Shown: in pieces, positions 39,401 to 62,892 of the stretch
Position numbering within the stretch: the first letter of the stretch is position 1
Layout of the letters: each line of letters opens with the position of its first letter
Source of the DNA: Halobacterium hubeiense
GTDB taxonomy: Archaea > Halobacteriota > Halobacteria > Halobacteriales > Halobacteriaceae
Length of the DNA stretch: 64,000 nucleotides
Assembly (NCBI RefSeq): GCF_001488575.1
Contig: NZ_LN831302.1
Location: 1,054,001 to 1,118,000, forward strand
Direction of reading: 5' to 3'
Made by a program: the position numbers and the translations under genes
Notes under the pieces: model-generated
The model's database searches: none
What the model was told of the DNA's origin: nothing
What the model saw: the letters and a program-made list of their open reading frames with translations, nothing else

Positions 39401-40423
39401 TTAGATGTTATCGAAGTATCCTCGCCGGTTCTTCATCTCCTGTTTCTTCGTACGTTTGTCGTAGTGTTTCTTCAGCACATCCGCGCTTACATCCATCCGC
39501 TCGGATACGGCTTCAATCGGGACTTCACTCCGCCGGGCGTGCGTGATTGCTCCTTTTCGCAGAGAGTGGGACGCGTGTGAGGATGGACACTTTGAGGCCG
39601 CGTGATAGGAGTTTGCCGCGTCGCAGTCCTCGGGGTCGCGGTCGTGGGGGCAGTCAAGTCCGTACTCACAGGGACGGGTAGCGCGGTAGCAGTTACTTCG
39701 GATAGAGGTCTTCGAGATACGGCCCTGTCGCGTCGTCATTAGTGGTTTTCGACCGGTGTCGTCGGTTTTGGTAAACCGATGATGGTCGATGTAGTCCTGT
39801 ACGATTTGGTTGACCTTCGGTTTCAGGGAGACGACGCGCTGGCCTTCTTTTCCGTTCTTTAGCGGAGTTCCATCGTCCGGTCGGTGATGGACTTCAAGCG
39901 TGCGTTCGTTGTTGTCGTAGTCATCGAGGTCGATAGCACGGAGTGCACCGTTTCGCATTCCCGTGTGCCACAGTAACTCGAAGATGACGTGTTCGCGCTG
40001 AGAGTAGTTGAAGTTCCGCTGATACTCGATGATGGCCTGCGCGGTATCAGCATCCACGAAGTCGTCGTTCACGTCCTCCTTGTTCTTCATCGTCGGCGGG
40101 TCGATGTAGTCCGACAGACCGGGCTGGACGGCGTCGATGCTCTCGCAGAAGTCGATGAAGACTTTGAGCGTACTCAATTGGGTAGCCATCGTGACCTTGT
40201 TGCAGTCGCCTTTCTCCCGCCGCCACTTCTTGTACTGATGGAAGTGCCGCCCGCTGAGGTCGTTCATATTGGTCACGCCGCCCTCGGTATCGCACCATTC
40301 AACGAACGGGGAGAGTCGATACTTGTGCGCTCGATAGGTAGCGTCGGCCAGTTCGCCGCGTCGGTTTTCGAGATACCATTCCTTCGCTTCCTGCGGGTCG
40401 ATTGGCTTGAGGTCGGGTGTCAT
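39401..40423 (-). CDS. tyrosine integrase of the tRNA-Lys element
   Basis: A 340-residue tyrosine recombinase. The N-terminal SAM-like DNA-binding domain (about 1-105) precedes the catalytic domain with Arg in WHTGMRNGALRAI (about 158), HSLRKGAITHAR (the H..R pair, about 287-299) and the nucleophile Tyr in LKKHYDKR (about 323). A Cys/His-rich insert (CEYGLDCPHDRDPEDC) near 248-263 could bind zinc, common in haloarchaeal integrases. Its start is 92 bases from attR, the expected place. Confidence 0.93.
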   Translation of the reverse strand: MTPDLKPIDPQEAKEWYLENRRGELADATYRAHKYRLSPFVEWCDTEGGVTNMNDLSGRHFHQYKKWRREKGDCNKVTMATQLSTLKVFIDFCESIDAVQPGLSDYIDPPTMKNKEDVNDDFVDADTAQAIIEYQRNFNYSQREHVIFELLWHTGMRNGALRAIDLDDYDNNERTLEVHHRPDDGTPLKNGKEGQRVVSLKPKVNQIVQDYIDHHRFTKTDDTGRKPLMTTRQGRISKTSIRSNCYRATRPCEYGLDCPHDRDPEDCDAANSYHAASKCPSSHASHSLRKGAITHARRSEVPIEAVSERMDVSADVLKKHYDKRTKKQEMKNRRGYFDNI

Positions 40424-54379: not shown

Positions 54380-54678
54380 GAGCTGTTCCTCGACGCTATT
54401 TCTGGGGGAGAAGTTGGTCGCCCGGAGTGAGGAGACGAGGCTAGCTTGCGGCGAGGTTTAGCGCAGTCGTCTCGATATCCCGAACTCACTGTTTTACCCA
54501 CCTACGGCCCGGGTAGTCGGCGAATCAGCGAGTTCGTCGAAAACTGCGCCCCATACACGCGCGCGTTGATTTGCGATTCAGCCCCACCCCAGCCACCGAC
54601 CACTTCATGCGACGAGAATATGCCGCCAAACTCTCCCTCCGATAGACACTTTGCGCGACACCGAGCAGGTTTTACGAG

Positions 54679-55365
54679 ATGGACGAGGACTCCGTGACGA
54701 AACGCGAGGTCTGGGACGACTGGGTCTCGAAGTACGTCGACATTAGTGACCCAGTTCCACTGTTCGAGACGGACGACGAGGGCGTCGTCCAGGTGAAGGC
54801 CCACGGGCAGGACGACCGGCCGATTCTCGAGCGCAGTCAGGAGATGGAGGAGTTGCTCGCGACGGAAGGGCGGAAGGTCGTCGAGGACTGGCAGCACGAC
54901 GACGACACCTACGAGGGCGTCATCTACCTCATGTACACGCTCGACGGCGAGACCGTTGTCCCGCGGTACGTGGGGAAAGCGGGCAAGTACGGGCGCGACG
55001 ACGAGCGGCTGAGCGCGAACCTGAAGAACGTCCGGACGAACCGGTCGAAGTTCGCGCGCTGGGGCGACGGCTACGCCTACCACCTCGGCGAACTGAGCGC
55101 CGCTCTCCTCGACCACCACGATGACCCCAGTGTCAACCGCGACGACGACCCGCGTGGGAAGTACCAGGCGTGGGCGAACGCGCTCTTCGAGGACGACTCG
55201 CGGAGGCTACGAGAACCCGTGTACTTCTGGGCGCGAGCGTGGCGAGAAGACGACACCGGCCCGTTCTACGGTTTCGAGACCTCGCTGGACGCGCTCGAAT
55301 ACTACCTCATCGACCTCGCCTCCGACCTCCACCCCGAGCACGTGCTGAATACTGAGGGCGTGTGA
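54679..55365 (+). CDS. GIY-YIG-like nuclease domain protein
   Basis: A 228-residue acidic protein. YEGVIYLMYTLDGETVVPRYVGKAGKYG (about residues 78-105) matches the GIY-YIG pattern (first Tyr pair, then YVGK), followed by an Arg/Asn helix (SANLKNVRTNRSKFARWGDGY). GIY-YIG enzymes cut DNA in repair, restriction and homing. The last 25 codons are duplicated at 56763-56837. The catalytic Arg and Glu are not certain by eye. Confidence 0.55.
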   Translation: MDEDSVTKREVWDDWVSKYVDISDPVPLFETDDEGVVQVKAHGQDDRPILERSQEMEELLATEGRKVVEDWQHDDDTYEGVIYLMYTLDGETVVPRYVGKAGKYGRDDERLSANLKNVRTNRSKFARWGDGYAYHLGELSAALLDHHDDPSVNRDDDPRGKYQAWANALFEDDSRRLREPVYFWARAWREDDTGPFYGFETSLDALEYYLIDLASDLHPEHVLNTEGV

Positions 55366-55422
55366 GTCGCGGTTCCTATGCCGCGTAAACTGCTTCTACT
55401 CGCCTGATTCCTCGACTCGGGT

Positions 55423-57460: not shown

Positions 57461-58819
57461 TTAGAGTCCAGTCCTAAAGTCATCCAGAGTATCGTAGGCG
57501 AGCTGGTCCATCTCCTTAGCAGCGTGAACCCACCGCATCATATAGTCTAAATCGCGATCGTCGTTGATTTGGAAGGACTGGCTGAACGGTGTGACCGTGC
57601 TTTGGTGGTCGTCTTTCAACTCGGCGATGAGGTCGTCAAAAGATTCGGACTGGACAGTCAAGGTGTGATCCCACCGTTTCGCGAGGTAATGCTTCTGTAA
57701 GACCGTTTTGAGGTTCTCTACCGAGGAGTTATCCTCAACTTTTTCGAACGACTGAGGTTCGTCGTCATCGATGTCGTCCTCGTCTTCCTCCTCCTGAACC
57801 TTCTCTGCCATATCCTGCCAGCTATCGAATTTTCGACTGCAAACGGGGCAGTCACACAAATCGAAGTCCGTGTTGAGCCCAAGGTCGGCTGCGGAGGCAG
57901 GGTTGACGAAGTCCTTGATTGGGTCGAAGTAGTAGCGATTGGGGAAATTTCCCCCGTCCGTGGCCTTCAGTTCCTCAGTGTGCTCTTCAGCGTAGAGCGT
58001 TCCGTACGTCGTTCCTCCGAGACCGAAATACGCCAGAAGGTGAGAGAAGAAGTCTCCGTACAGGAAGTGGGGAACGATACCTCTGTCACGGATATCGTAG
58101 ACGAACTTGATCACGTTTTCATAGACGGATTGGCCAGTCTCACGCTTGTCTAGACCCTCTATGATGAGGAAACACTCCGAGACATCCAACTCGTCGACGA
58201 GGTCGATGAGATTGCTCCGCGTCCCAGCGTCGCTTATCATACTCTTCGTCGTGTAGACGCAGGGCTTGAGCGGAATCGTAGCGGCGTCTTGGGACGCATT
58301 CAGAATTGTTTTCGCGGTGGATATCTTCGATTCGTCGTCGATCTTGTTGTACCAGGGTATGATCTTCTTCGGCTCAGCAGGCGGAGAACCGATGTCGGCG
58401 AAGTTACTGAGGTCTACGTTCACAGCGTCGGTAGCGAACGTCTCCTGAAATCGGACGACAGATGCGGCGATTTCGGAGATGTCCTGCTCTGTCATCTTCT
58501 CGGGATTCGCATTCCCACGCTCCTCGAGAATCGACGAGAGGGGGTCGCCAAGATGGCGGAGATACGCCCTCGTCCAGTCGGTGATGTCCCCGTTCTCTTT
58601 CCGGAAGTTCCGACCGCGCTCGAATTCGGCTAGTCCGGGGTCGATGTAGTAATCGATGCCCTCGCTCCCCGTGATGTCGTAGATTTTCTCCTTGGTCGCG
58701 TCGCTGTTGAACGCTACCAGGTGAGGCTCGAAGAGAATCGAGTCGTAGAATTCCGGCTGAGTCTCGACAGGATGCTTGTTGTTATTGTTGTTGTAGCGAA
58801 CAGTCGTCTCAAACATCAC
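57461..58819 (-). CDS. TGT/DpdA-like base-exchange protein
   Basis: A 452-residue protein resembling the tRNA-guanine transglycosylase superfamily. Early GIDYYIDPGLAEFERGR holds an Asp-containing strand. The central ECFLIIEGLD and FLYGDFFSHLLAYFGLGGTTYGTLYAEEH look like the GG substrate region. CDCPVC (about 325-330) followed by LQKHYLAKRWDH near 385 matches the family's CxCxxC plus His zinc site, with an acidic insert between. DpdA members insert 7-deazaguanine into DNA rather than tRNA. It overlaps the nuclease gene by 11 bases. The match is by eye and remote, so the activity is unproven. Confidence 0.5.
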   Translation of the reverse strand: MMFETTVRYNNNNNKHPVETQPEFYDSILFEPHLVAFNSDATKEKIYDITGSEGIDYYIDPGLAEFERGRNFRKENGDITDWTRAYLRHLGDPLSSILEERGNANPEKMTEQDISEIAASVVRFQETFATDAVNVDLSNFADIGSPPAEPKKIIPWYNKIDDESKISTAKTILNASQDAATIPLKPCVYTTKSMISDAGTRSNLIDLVDELDVSECFLIIEGLDKRETGQSVYENVIKFVYDIRDRGIVPHFLYGDFFSHLLAYFGLGGTTYGTLYAEEHTEELKATDGGNFPNRYYFDPIKDFVNPASAADLGLNTDFDLCDCPVCSRKFDSWQDMAEKVQEEEDEDDIDDDEPQSFEKVEDNSSVENLKTVLQKHYLAKRWDHTLTVQSESFDDLIAELKDDHQSTVTPFSQSFQINDDRDLDYMMRWVHAAKEMDQLAYDTLDDFRTGL

Positions 58820-59270
58820 CTTTCACTAGCTCGATAACCTTCCCGCGCCGACATAACTGTTGGGCGGTTTTGTCCGGTGAAGAGACGATTTCTACGTCCG
58901 CGCCCACCGCGAGAAGGCCAATCGGCAGGTCCGATACACGCTCAAGGAGCCGGTCAGTCACGTCCTTCTCCCACACCGCGAGGAAGGAGAAGTCGACGTA
59001 GTCGGAGTTCCGAAGGGCCTGCTGGATGCCTTTCCCGACGTTTCGAGACTTCAGTTCGATGGCAATCGTCTCGTCGCCGTTCGCGCACAGCACGTCGATT
59101 GGGTAGGAGAAGATCGACTGCTCGGTCGCGTGGTCGATCCCGAGAGTTTCCAGGAAGTCGACGACGATTCCGAGCTGGTACTTCTCGGGAACGTACTGTT
59201 CCTCGGTTTCGTCCTGATCCGCGGTCCACCGTTCGTTGTAGTGTTTGACAATCTCAGTCTGTGACATCAC
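58809..59270 (-). CDS. PD-(D/E)XK nuclease-like protein
   Basis: A 153-residue protein with the restriction-endonuclease core: YPIDVLCANGDETIAIELKSRNVGKGIQQAL (about residues 57-87), where Asp precedes a strand with E-x-K (IELK), then a helix with Gln. A C-terminal half (FSFLAVWEKDVTDRLLERV) completes the fold. Such single-domain nucleases appear in defence loci. It overlaps the gene before it by four bases and the TGT-like gene by eleven. Confidence 0.7.
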   Translation of the reverse strand: MMSQTEIVKHYNERWTADQDETEEQYVPEKYQLGIVVDFLETLGIDHATEQSIFSYPIDVLCANGDETIAIELKSRNVGKGIQQALRNSDYVDFSFLAVWEKDVTDRLLERVSDLPIGLLAVGADVEIVSSPDKTAQQLCRRGKVIELVKGDV

Positions 59271-59776
59271 TTCGCCTCCGAGAACACGTCATCTCGAATC
59301 TCTGACTCGACTGCGAAATCTGGATACGTAGAGTACACGTATTGCAGCAACTCCGTCAGGGACATCGAATTGTACTCTGTAACCAGATTCTCTAGTTCAT
59401 CCCTGTACTCGGGCTCAAGTTGTCCCACGAGTTCGCTCGCGATCTTCTCGCCTTTCGGCGTGATGCTGAACTTCTTGTTCCCCAGGTCCGACTGGCTCTC
59501 GTCACCGAGGTGTGGCGAGTCGAGGGGCTCAGACTCGATGGCGGATAGCTGCAGTAAGAACTCAAGTTCCGAGTACACCGCCTCCGAGAACGGCCCCATC
59601 TTGTACGGCGCGAATTCGAACGCAACGTCGTCCTCGTACTCCTCGAAGAACTCCGTCTCCTGCTCGATGAGGAAGAGCAGCTTCTGGAGTTTCGTCACTC
59701 CGCGGACCTGCTCCGCGAAGTAGAACAGGATGAAGACGACATCCGTTCGTCTATCGATTTCGTCGATTCGCGCCAT
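59267..59776 (-). CDS. DUF4065/SocA-like (Panacea-type) protein
   Basis: A 169-residue helical protein with RGVTKLQKLLFLIEQE (about 29-44), FAPYKMGPFSEAVYSELEFLLQL (about 55-77) and KKFSITPKGEKIASEL (about 105-120). This order is seen in SocA/DUF4065 ('Panacea') and YwgA-like proteins, which act as antitoxins or sensors in toxin-antitoxin and phage-defence loci. It is the first gene of the three-gene operon and follows a good TATA-like box. Confidence 0.6.
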   Translation of the reverse strand: MARIDEIDRRTDVVFILFYFAEQVRGVTKLQKLLFLIEQETEFFEEYEDDVAFEFAPYKMGPFSEAVYSELEFLLQLSAIESEPLDSPHLGDESQSDLGNKKFSITPKGEKIASELVGQLEPEYRDELENLVTEYNSMSLTELLQYVYSTYPDFAVESEIRDDVFSEAK

Positions 59777-59800: not shown

Positions 59801-59808
59801 TATATGAA
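59801..59808 (-). promoter_or_regulatory. TATA-like box of the three-gene operon
   Basis: TTCATATA on the minus strand, far edge 32 bases before the ATG at 59776, predicts a leaderless operon transcript. Confidence 0.5.
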
Positions 59809-59844: not shown

Positions 59845-61089
59845 TCAATCGGTACTCCTAATCGAGAGGTTTGATACCCTGCTTCGAATATCATTTAGAA
59901 GACCGGATCGAGTAGAGGGATTAATCTCCCAGTTGTACTCTCTTATCCTCCTTGCTGGATAGATGACCAGGAAAAAGATTGAGAGAAATGCTATAATCGC
60001 GAATGCGAACAGACCAATCAAAATGTACAATTGTTTCTGCTTACCGAGCCCTAATTGAACCACGTTTATAAACTGGATAAATGGAATACTAGCGATTAGC
60101 GTGACCAGAACACCTATTGATTTCGCAGACGGCTGCAAAGTATCACTACCAGAATAAAGTTGGTTAAAATCAGAGACCTTGTCGCGCATCTCCTCTCTAG
60201 CGGTTGTAGCAACCTCGGACTGATTCACATCTACTAACCCGTCTTCACTATATCTGTGAAAGTGTAGGCCCCCATCACCAAACTCACAAGAACAGACGAG
60301 CACCGCTGAACCGTCACTAGGGTGTTCCCCGACTACTTTCACAGAACTGATTTCTAAATATTCATCGACTTGAGGGAGAGAATAGCTGGGTTGTTCTGAA
60401 ACAGAGTACCCATTTTTGTCGAGATAGTTCCGAATAGAATCAACGATAGCCTCTCTGTTCGTCTCGGCAGCTGGTGACGATTCCCTACAGATTGGTAGTG
60501 AGATTGGTTTCTGCAGTCTTATCAGCTCATCCCGTGTATTTCCCCAGAATGAAGGGTCTAACAAATCCGACCACGAGAAAATATACTCCTGTGGATTTGC
60601 ATGGCTAGTGTTTACAAAACCAACAGGGAAGCGTAGCTTAGTTGTATCTGGCTCATAGCTTTCAAATCTCTTACCGTCAAAGAACACTCTAAACGTGACT
60701 TCACCCAAGCTATCCGAGTCTGCAAGCAATTTCCAATGCAGGTCGCGAACTTTTTCTACGGTGACCGAGGCAAACCAATCGCGTTCGGAGATGTTCTTAG
60801 ACCACTCTTCAATAATGGTCTCTGGGTTAAGTTTGTAGCAGATATCAACCACGTTTTGATTAGGACAAGAGCATTCATCTTCAGATGACTTACAATTTGA
60901 ACACAAACGATTTCTATACGAGATGAAAAAGTCCTTCCAATCTTGTCCGATATCGTCTGGGTCAATCCCCGCCTCGACAATGAATGAATCTATCTCTGGT
61001 TTGGTGAATTCATAATTAACAATCTCTCCATGGTCCGGAATTTGGTATAAGCAACGAGCTAAGAAGCTAATATCGTCGTCAGAGAGCAT
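59845..61089 (-). CDS. unknown protein with Cys cluster and two C-terminal membrane helices
   Basis: A 414-residue protein, last gene of the AT-rich operon. The N-terminal part has a Cys cluster (CSNCKSSEDECSCPNQ, near 60-75) likely to bind zinc. A middle soluble part runs to about 310 (FRVFFDGKRFESYEPDTTKLRFP, then AVLVCSCEFGDGGLHFHRY). Two helices near 325-375 (SIGVLVTLIASIPFIQFINVV and LYILIGLFAFAIIAFLSIFF) and a basic tail end it. It could anchor the operon's complex to the membrane. An earlier ATG at 61110 is possible. No family recognised. Confidence 0.6.
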   Translation of the reverse strand: MLSDDDISFLARCLYQIPDHGEIVNYEFTKPEIDSFIVEAGIDPDDIGQDWKDFFISYRNRLCSNCKSSEDECSCPNQNVVDICYKLNPETIIEEWSKNISERDWFASVTVEKVRDLHWKLLADSDSLGEVTFRVFFDGKRFESYEPDTTKLRFPVGFVNTSHANPQEYIFSWSDLLDPSFWGNTRDELIRLQKPISLPICRESSPAAETNREAIVDSIRNYLDKNGYSVSEQPSYSLPQVDEYLEISSVKVVGEHPSDGSAVLVCSCEFGDGGLHFHRYSEDGLVDVNQSEVATTAREEMRDKVSDFNQLYSGSDTLQPSAKSIGVLVTLIASIPFIQFINVVQLGLGKQKQLYILIGLFAFAIIAFLSIFFLVIYPARRIREYNWEINPSTRSGLLNDIRSRVSNLSIRSTD

Positions 61090-61870
61090 ATTCTCTCTCT
61101 GCAGTTTCAATTATCTCAATTGGTGAATCGTAGTCTCCACTCATTAGATAGACTAAGTGGTTCCAAAGGATATCAAAGTCAACCGAGGTCATCTCGTCGT
61201 CCCATTTTGCGTATTTTTCAAAGAACATCTTGACGCGTCCTTCAGGAGTGGGGCGACTCTGGTCCGCAGGCGGGTCTGGATACTGGCTGGAATCCAGATC
61301 CAGTTGGGAGAGTTTAATACCTATATTTGATATGAGTGACTCGAAGATTTTAATTTCCTCATCCTGATAGTCTTCCTCATCGAAGTAATTAGAAACCATA
61401 TTTTCAAATGAATCCTCTATTCGTTCTGCTACGGAGCGAGGATCCTCCATCGATCTCCCCCCGAACTCTTTGAAAACCCAATCACGGAGAAGTAGTTCAA
61501 GAGAATCCAGATATTCTCGATTGTCTAATACAGTCGTTACTGTTTCTTCAACCCAATCTAGAAGATCTGTTCCAGTAGGGACTTCGGAAGTCGAAATGTG
61601 GCCGTCTTCGTACGCCCTAATTTGCACCCGTTTATCCTTTACATCACCTGTATAAGAAACGTGGAATCGAATCTGGATGACCCTTCCACCATCCTGTGCA
61701 GGATTTAATACTTCAGATTGGTACAGGTGTTCGCCCCGATTACCTCGATACCTCGCCGTGTTTATTCGTACATCATCGAAACCCCCATAGTCAATCCCAG
61801 TATTTTGGCCATCCATCAAATTCTGGAGGAGGAGCAATTCCGAACTGCGGAAAGTTATTTCATCACTCAT
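61079..61870 (-). CDS. 263-residue protein of the AT-rich operon, unknown
   Basis: MSDEITFRSSELLLLQNLMD, then a beta-rich part (GGRVIQIRFHVSYTGDVKDKRVQIRAYE) and a helical acidic C-terminal half (ERIEDSFENMVSNYFDEEDY). Soluble, no clear motif. It overlaps the neighbours by 8 and 11 bases. Base composition is much more AT-rich than in the chromosome, pointing to transfer from a different host. Confidence 0.55.
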   Translation of the reverse strand: MSDEITFRSSELLLLQNLMDGQNTGIDYGGFDDVRINTARYRGNRGEHLYQSEVLNPAQDGGRVIQIRFHVSYTGDVKDKRVQIRAYEDGHISTSEVPTGTDLLDWVEETVTTVLDNREYLDSLELLLRDWVFKEFGGRSMEDPRSVAERIEDSFENMVSNYFDEEDYQDEEIKIFESLISNIGIKLSQLDLDSSQYPDPPADQSRPTPEGRVKMFFEKYAKWDDEMTSVDFDILWNHLVYLMSGDYDSPIEIIETAEREYAL

Positions 61871-62546
61871 CGTCCTTCCCCCATCTCTTTATTGCTGCCA
61901 GAACATCGTCCTCTACGCTTGACTTCATTTCTGAATTGGACATTGTAACAATCTCATCACCGGCGTAAACTCTTACTTCCACTCGGAGCTTGTTCTCTGT
62001 AACAATGGCCTCCATCCCTTCAACGCCTAAATCCTCGACATCGATGTAATCCCCAGATTCGTCCCTAATTTTCGTCGCATCTTCAACATCCATGTTCTCA
62101 GGATGGCCAACGACCTCAAACCGTAGATCGAGAACTTCTTCGGAATCTTTCGCCCGGACATCTTTAAGAGAAGTGGGAAGACTAAATTGGTTCTCTTCGG
62201 TTTCTTCTAGTGCTCCGTGTGCTTCATTCGCATTTTGCTTGAGGTCGCCATAGTTAATCCCATCAATTTGATAGAACTGTAGGTTGAACGAGTCTCCCTT
62301 CTCACCATATTCCTCAAATAATTCATGGATATATTCTCCGTATTGTTCATCACCCAGATCTACTCGGAGTGTTTCACAGAACGATTCCGGCTTGTTGTCG
62401 ACTAAAAAGTGGAAGTCCCTCCCCGCCTCTTCAAGCATGTCTTGAATAGTCTCGTCATCCTCTGTTCGATATGATGCAGCGGGGATTCTACTAGCCATTT
62501 GATCAACCGAAAGCTGATCTTGAAAGATGTACCTGTTCCTACTCAT
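61863..62546 (-). CDS. 227-residue protein of the AT-rich operon, unknown
   Basis: MSRNRYIFQDQLSVDQMASR, then LRVDLGDEQYGEYIHELFEE, FNLQFYQIDGINYGDLKQNA and EVLDLRFEVVGHPENMDV. An acidic alpha-beta protein without a recognised domain. The ATG at 62546 overlaps the preceding stop by eight bases; the longer frame to 62567 is less likely. Confidence 0.55.
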   Translation of the reverse strand: MSRNRYIFQDQLSVDQMASRIPAASYRTEDDETIQDMLEEAGRDFHFLVDNKPESFCETLRVDLGDEQYGEYIHELFEEYGEKGDSFNLQFYQIDGINYGDLKQNANEAHGALEETEENQFSLPTSLKDVRAKDSEEVLDLRFEVVGHPENMDVEDATKIRDESGDYIDVEDLGVEGMEAIVTENKLRVEVRVYAGDEIVTMSNSEMKSSVEDDVLAAIKRWGKDDE

Positions 62547-62892
62547 CGATATCAACCTCAAGTTCATCAGCGAAAAGCGGCGCTTCTTCGGATATCTCTC
62601 TCAGCTTTCTATAGGTTTCTTCTGTTTCATCAACAGCCCGTTTTAATTGATAGCTGGGCTCCAACAATCGTTTAAATCCGGAATCAATGTCCGTAGGTTG
62701 GACGCGAGCAGATCCCCTTTCAGCAGCGGATTGTGCAGAAAGATACCAGGCGACTTCAATCATCTTCTCCATTCGGGCTTTGAAATAGTCATCTGTACCG
62801 TCCCCCACATTTTGCTCGTGCATATCCCTCATTAAACCCCTAAGCGGGGTAACTTTGATTGGGTCGTGTTCATCAAAAGGGTCCTCAGACAT
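62539..62892 (-). CDS. 117-residue helical protein, possible histone-fold-like segment
   Basis: First gene of the AT-rich operon. MIEVAWYLSAQSAAERGSAR, then VQPTDIDSGFKRLL (about residues 45-80), has the helix-loop-helix rhythm of a histone fold, where RV.P.D. precedes the last helix. This is a weak resemblance. The rest is acidic and helical (LKRAVDETEETYRKLREISE). It would be soluble and could bind DNA or the next gene's product. Confidence 0.55.
   Translation of the reverse strand: MSEDPFDEHDPIKVTPLRGLMRDMHEQNVGDGTDDYFKARMEKMIEVAWYLSAQSAAERGSARVQPTDIDSGFKRLLEPSYQLKRAVDETEETYRKLREISEEAPLFADELEVDIDE

Follow-up and report, generated by a model that had tools for sequence, protein, structure and literature searches.

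What do three genes that follow one another without gaps on the minus strand of a Halobacterium hubeiense contig do together? The window, by which we mean the whole 64,000-nucleotide stretch of DNA that was analysed, carries such a set (hereafter the triad): its ORF listing shows a SocA-like gene, a nuclease-like gene and a gene for a 452-residue protein, here called the barrel protein, lying back to back. An earlier note on this DNA had read the three as a joint modification-and-cleavage system containing a TGT/DpdA-like enzyme. The features of the locus are:

59801-59808, minus strand: TATA-like TTCATATA, a weak candidate promoter that precedes the SocA ATG by 32 nt and matches an archaeal consensus at 7/8 positions
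59267-59776, minus strand: gene 1, SocA/DUF4065 (Panacea)-like, 169 aa, a predicted neutraliser or switch (ORF with PF13274 and PADLOC matches)
58809-59270, minus strand: gene 2, PD-(D/E)XK nuclease-like, 153 aa, probable start at the ATG at 59267 (ORF, residues and weak Pfam matches)
59049-59096, minus strand: nuclease motif D59-x12-E72-x-K74 (DVLCANGDETIAIELK), from the alignment of the family
57461-58819, minus strand: gene 3, barrel protein, 452 aa, probable start at the ATG at 58816, with part of a predicted TIM barrel and a TGT-like zinc motif
57839-57856, minus strand: CxCxxC motif (C322, C324, C327) of the barrel protein
57689-57691, minus strand: H377 of the barrel protein, kept by every member and putatively the fourth zinc ligand

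All three ORFs are real at these coordinates, as homologues in other genera repeat their order beyond chance. The overlaps of 4 and 11 bases described in the earlier note hold with the GTG starts chosen there; with the adjacent ATGs they measure 1 and 8 bases, and orthologues favour these next-codon ATG starts (the third protein begins MFET...). The motifs reported there, E-x-K, CxCxxC with a His and KLQKLLFLIEQ, are all present. A single shared promoter, as proposed there, is tentative. The gapless genes and the TATA-like TTCATATA are consistent with it, but a second 7/8 TATA match lies at -61 and the upstream regions of the orthologues compared revealed no clear TATA box common to them.

Gene 1 can be placed with the SocA/Panacea family. 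The window copy matches PF13274 below the curated score (E=0.0076, Pfam), 13 of the 14 family members match the same model, the best with 8.6e-08, and a distant orthologue exceeds the curated cut-off, so that the SocA-like identity proposed earlier is borne out. The gene also matches the PADLOC model PDC-M19A (E=1.8e-16), and its orthologues have identities of 43-67%. PMC8832971 names WP_049938427.1, the SocA protein from the pNG400 triad of Haloarcula marismortui, as a plasmid-encoded Panacea (DUF4065) protein, and excerpts of that paper describe Panacea proteins as neutralising their partners through direct binding.

The PD-(D/E)XK identity of gene 2 is supported as well. All 14 members aligned, those of an archaeon of another class and of Arthrobacter among them, share D59, E72, K74 and Q84. 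The weak Pfam matches of gene 2 comprise UPF0102 (0.001), NERD (0.0013), MTES_1575 (0.014), NucS_C (0.027), AHJR (0.032) and Hjc (0.047), which we take to be PD-(D/E)XK-type families, in addition to LisH and DUF4864, which we do not. It is a fair prediction from the conserved residues that the gene 2 product is an active nuclease.

The identity of the third protein is where the earlier reading fared less well. Its homologues are clear (E 1e-60 to 1e-110), and Y9, P61, P150, F258, G266, E278, R295, Y297, H377 and W430 are invariant across archaea and Arthrobacter. Searches of Pfam, NCBIfam, PHROGs, PADLOC and PDB sequences gave no significant match to the barrel protein; the Pfam families TGT (PF01702) and DpdA (PF23859) did not match it, and PF23859 was unmatched in 13 barrel members at E 0.5. 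Comparison with TGT by hhalign yielded a P of about 0.003, but block-shuffled alignments scored equally high. This signal consists of the CxCxxC block only, with residues 1-318 below the shuffled controls, whereas eight DpdA sequences, serving as a positive control, recover the same TGT profile at 85% probability. The DSGG- and FDC-type catalytic aspartate motifs of TGT, whose positions we take from general knowledge and a hand alignment, are missing from the barrel alignment; position 60 is D, E, N or Q, and E278 is the acidic residue that never varies. The assignment of the 452-residue protein to DpdA/TGT was rejected at the sequence level, since the family searches and the controlled hhalign comparison revealed nothing in common beyond the zinc-type motif.

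This motif is found in most of the family. CxCxxC is present in 12 of the 13 aligned haloarchaeal barrel members and in the copy of a distant archaeon (L067); it is lost in haloarchaeal L028 and in Arthrobacter L069, both of which retain only the His. In the window copy, the stretch from C327 to H377 is lengthened by an acidic insertion of ~25 aa. In insertion-free copies the spacing from CxCxxC to the His is as in TGT, where the His follows about 22-28 residues on. In the two loci that lost the cysteines, an extra gene separates SocA from the nuclease and encodes a membrane protein of ~200 aa with three segments (L028:5532-6119 and L069:6914-7516); sequence similarity between the two membrane proteins was not detected.

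Structure prediction gave a mixed answer. The two AlphaFold models, of the window protein and of its Natrialba orthologue, were built on four sequences and have a mean pLDDT of 48 and 47, respectively. Their central strands are more confident (core pLDDT of 75-88 for the window protein) and show the beta/alpha alternation of a TIM barrel, and judging from these models the protein probably contains one. Searching Foldseek with the first model returned mixed TIM barrels as best matches (dihydrouridine synthase, adenosine deaminase and HpaI aldolase), whereas the second model drew TGT chains as 8 of its top 50 matches, at E 0.1 or worse. What stands of the predicted TGT fold is a low-confidence TIM barrel and, for the second model, these TGT chains; none of the matches is significant, and Foldseek against viral models gave nothing significant for the barrel. 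On visual inspection, the strand order and some of the motifs (PHFLYG... to PHYLMG..., with CxCxxC and the His following in turn) look TGT-like, which we treat as a lead only.

Could the barrel protein instead be a TIM-barrel enzyme unrelated to TGT, with a convergent zinc-type motif, that makes or destroys a small molecule controlling the nuclease? Other TIM barrels being the best structural matches of the first model would fit such an enzyme, as would the loss of the zinc motif in two relatives. Less easily explained are the TGT-like spacing of CxCxxC and His in insertion-free copies and the second model, which in an informal comparison draws TGT chains above the expectation from similarly abundant families. 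We consider an unrelated enzyme unlikely and lean slightly towards kinship of the barrel with TGT.

DpdA-type chemistry of the barrel is a separate matter and is unproven. A DpdA-like transglycosylase would mark host DNA with 7-deazaguanine while the nuclease cuts unmarked DNA and SocA acts as sensor or regulator. The TGT-style CxCxxC and His of most members and the TGT chains matched by the second model are compatible with this, and the host has its own tRNA TGT, so that, as the pathway is known, a supply of preQ0 would be expected. However, profile similarity is confined to the zinc motif in a test that does recover DpdA, the TGT aspartate motifs are absent, the zinc cysteines are lost in L028 and Arthrobacter, and no dpdB/dpdC-type gene was found among the neighbours searched. 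The host's own genome contained no DpdA match. True DpdA-family genes (PF23859) are present in two other haloarchaeal genomes, away from the triad (L040 and L041).

A natural disruption in one genome, G228, bears on this model. Its barrel gene is split over two contigs into the first 103 codons and the remainder from about codon 94, and both halves abut identical 1379-bp insertion sequence copies. The SocA and nuclease genes upstream are intact, with the catalytic residues kept. We also considered that G228 might hold a second arrangement without SocA and nuclease and rejected this, as the identical insertion sequence copies splitting one barrel gene explain it. G228, a single case with its barrel halves on different contigs, speaks against the barrel as a protective modification enzyme and weakens the modification-and-cleavage idea: an unprotected restriction nuclease should harm its host, yet G228 keeps its nuclease gene. 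This favours either a barrel needed for attack and not for protection, or a nuclease held by SocA alone; only in the latter case should a restriction pair tolerate such a state. Taken with the evidence above, this makes the DpdA-like model quite improbable.

If the barrel does not protect, how firmly is it tied to its two neighbours? Strong barrel homologues occur in 12 of 394 Halobacteriales genomes, the host's own included (~3% of haloarchaeal species). Wherever a haloarchaeal barrel gene is intact, SocA-like and nuclease-like genes precede it in the same order, as the survey proposed in the earlier note would have it, and this strict linkage supports the joint function suggested there. Named copies are those of Haloarcula sinaiiensis pHsi540, Haloarcula sp. 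JP-L23, Haloarcula marismortui pNG400, Halovenus aranensis and two Natrialba. A profile search uncovered a distant triad (G630, 19% identity) in an archaeon that belongs to the same phylum but a different class, and from this copy a triad with an added membrane gene was reached on the Arthrobacter plasmid pSI-1, the bacterial distribution being drawn from plasmid records only. Immediately upstream of the distant archaeal triad lies a BrnT-like gene (L067:1027-1320). Phages and viral contigs yielded no triad homologue.

The two partner genes are equally restricted. Among 245 genomes searched, strong nuclease and strong SocA matches fall in the same five genomes, which are the triad genomes. Triad copies of SocA score E 1e-71 or better against 1e-25 for the next relatives, and triad nucleases 1e-60 or better against 1e-10. 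The distances of the three proteins correlate (Mantel r 0.62-0.81, with 0 of 5000 permutations as high), as expected of a unit moving as one, a correlation in which co-evolution and shared inheritance of the locus are not separated. Members of a single taxonomic family (f3) are spread over the 40% and the 30% identity groups, a pattern suggesting that the triad has been transferred horizontally.

The triad is mobile. Several copies reside on plasmids. Around the window copy the GC content is 44-54%, compared with about 65-70% over most of the window, and this island DNA is essentially missing from 11 congeners. A serine recombinase/resolvase gene past the window end (L139:4829-5503, corresponding to 67829-68503 in window numbering) is probably part of this low-GC island. 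Upstream of the triad, four packed genes on the minus strand (59845-62892; 117, 234, 263 and 421 aa) possibly form a separate operon; they have no Pfam, PADLOC or NCBIfam match above cut-off, and the cluster was rejected as a part of the triad because the other triad loci compared hold no homologue of it. Elsewhere in the window, a gene for 228 aa at 54637-55378 has a GIY-YIG-like look (GVIYLMYTL...RYVGKAG), and the segment is repeated at 93% identity on contig C2 of this genome. The segment 33963-40423, in which a tRNA-Lys precedes a low-GC stretch ending near an integrase-like gene (39401-40423), resembles a second integrated element.

Plasmid copies and one copy in an island would also suit an ordinary addiction-type toxin-antitoxin system, with SocA as antitoxin, either nuclease or barrel as toxin and the third protein as an accessory, which stabilises plasmids and islands instead of providing defence. 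The position of SocA/Panacea as first gene of the operon agrees with this, and excerpts of PMC8832971 mention Panacea loci of three genes whose accessories are nucleases or modification enzymes. Unlike the optional accessories of those excerpts, however, the third gene of the triad is constant save in the copy split by the insertion sequence, and restriction systems often adjoin the triad. An addiction role is in our view improbable.

The neighbouring genes support a defence-like setting. In six haloarchaeal triad loci, as a raw count, the triad has restriction-type or SIR2 neighbours. L019 has both a type I-like restriction gene and a type IV-like HNH gene, L020 an EVE-AAA ATPase, and L021 a restriction enzyme together with a C5 methylase; Eco57I-type IIG enzymes are found at L028 and L035, and a SIR2 protein at L034. 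At L020:8284-12970, the EVE-domain AAA_5 ATPase is followed by a 452-aa protein, an arrangement that resembles a McrBC-type module with a modified-base reader.

Such surroundings raise the possibility that the triad is itself a modification-dependent (type IV-like) module, in which a barrel that no longer exchanges bases reads modified guanine of viral DNA and guides the nuclease there. A barrel that lacks the TGT catalytic motifs yet keeps an invariant set of residues would be explained, no protective mark on host DNA would be needed, which fits G228, and the EVE-domain AAA ATPase adjoins one locus. Base binding by the barrel and its TGT kinship are both unproven, and we regard this model as very unlikely.

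We favour the reading that the triad is a horizontally moving, Panacea-controlled nuclease-barrel effector module, and give it a probability of roughly 50%. The barrel and the PD-(D/E)XK protein, being co-translated, would most likely form one complex that attacks nucleic acid, with the nuclease as its cutter. The barrel, of TGT-like fold at best and with a divergent active site (invariant E278, R295 and H377), may recognise or alter a base and in this way select the target. SocA/Panacea, made first from the same transcript, would bind and silence the complex until infection disturbs the silencing, in a manner comparable to Panacea antitoxins. Panacea antitoxins usually have one toxin as partner, which counts against a gated effector with two. 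The likely role of such a module would be defence against viruses or plasmids. A bolder version, in which the triad is a cross-domain immune system whose divergent TGT-fold base exchanger or reader picks the nucleic acid for the PD-(D/E)XK nuclease while Panacea serves as the safety catch, is tentative and on balance rather doubtful.

Should the barrel have a TGT fold, the triad would show this fold partnered with a nuclease in a minimal set of three genes, and base-level DNA chemistry would be linked there with toxin-antitoxin control of the Panacea kind. Without a TGT fold, the triad is still a compact, mobile, cross-domain module whose small size eases testing.

In agreement with the earlier note, which knew of no system with exactly these parts, the triad matches no described system that we found, and the family libraries searched do not recognise the set. 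The literature searched, largely without subscription papers, contained no paper on the triad or on its accession numbers. Partial likenesses do exist. For the PADLOC candidate PDC-M19, the match of gene 1 spans positions 1-133 of PDC-M19A (294), its Panacea-like part only, and none of the PDC-M19 models is matched by genes 2 or 3. The PADLOC DarG model likewise weakly matches a Panacea-like stretch, and DarTG offers the analogy of a base-directed toxin held by an antitoxin; DarT and the macrodomain, however, were not found in the triad, whose partner enzymes are unrelated. BRC systems with TGT and GNAT (PMC12839542) resemble the triad in that a TGT-fold protein is proposed within a defence operon, but their core genes, PglZ, HerA, DUF6079 and the STAND ATPase, were unrecognised among the triad neighbours examined. 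With the Dpd system the triad shares a putative TGT-like protein beside a nuclease gene and the zinc-type motif, yet its barrel has no detectable similarity to DpdA and three genes stand against a large Dpd island. Panacea toxin-antitoxin systems likewise encode a SocA/Panacea protein and a potential toxin close together in one compact operon, as excerpts of PMC8832971 describe; the triad differs from them in joining Panacea to a PD-(D/E)XK protein and a barrel, a pair that these excerpts do not name, as one fixed set.
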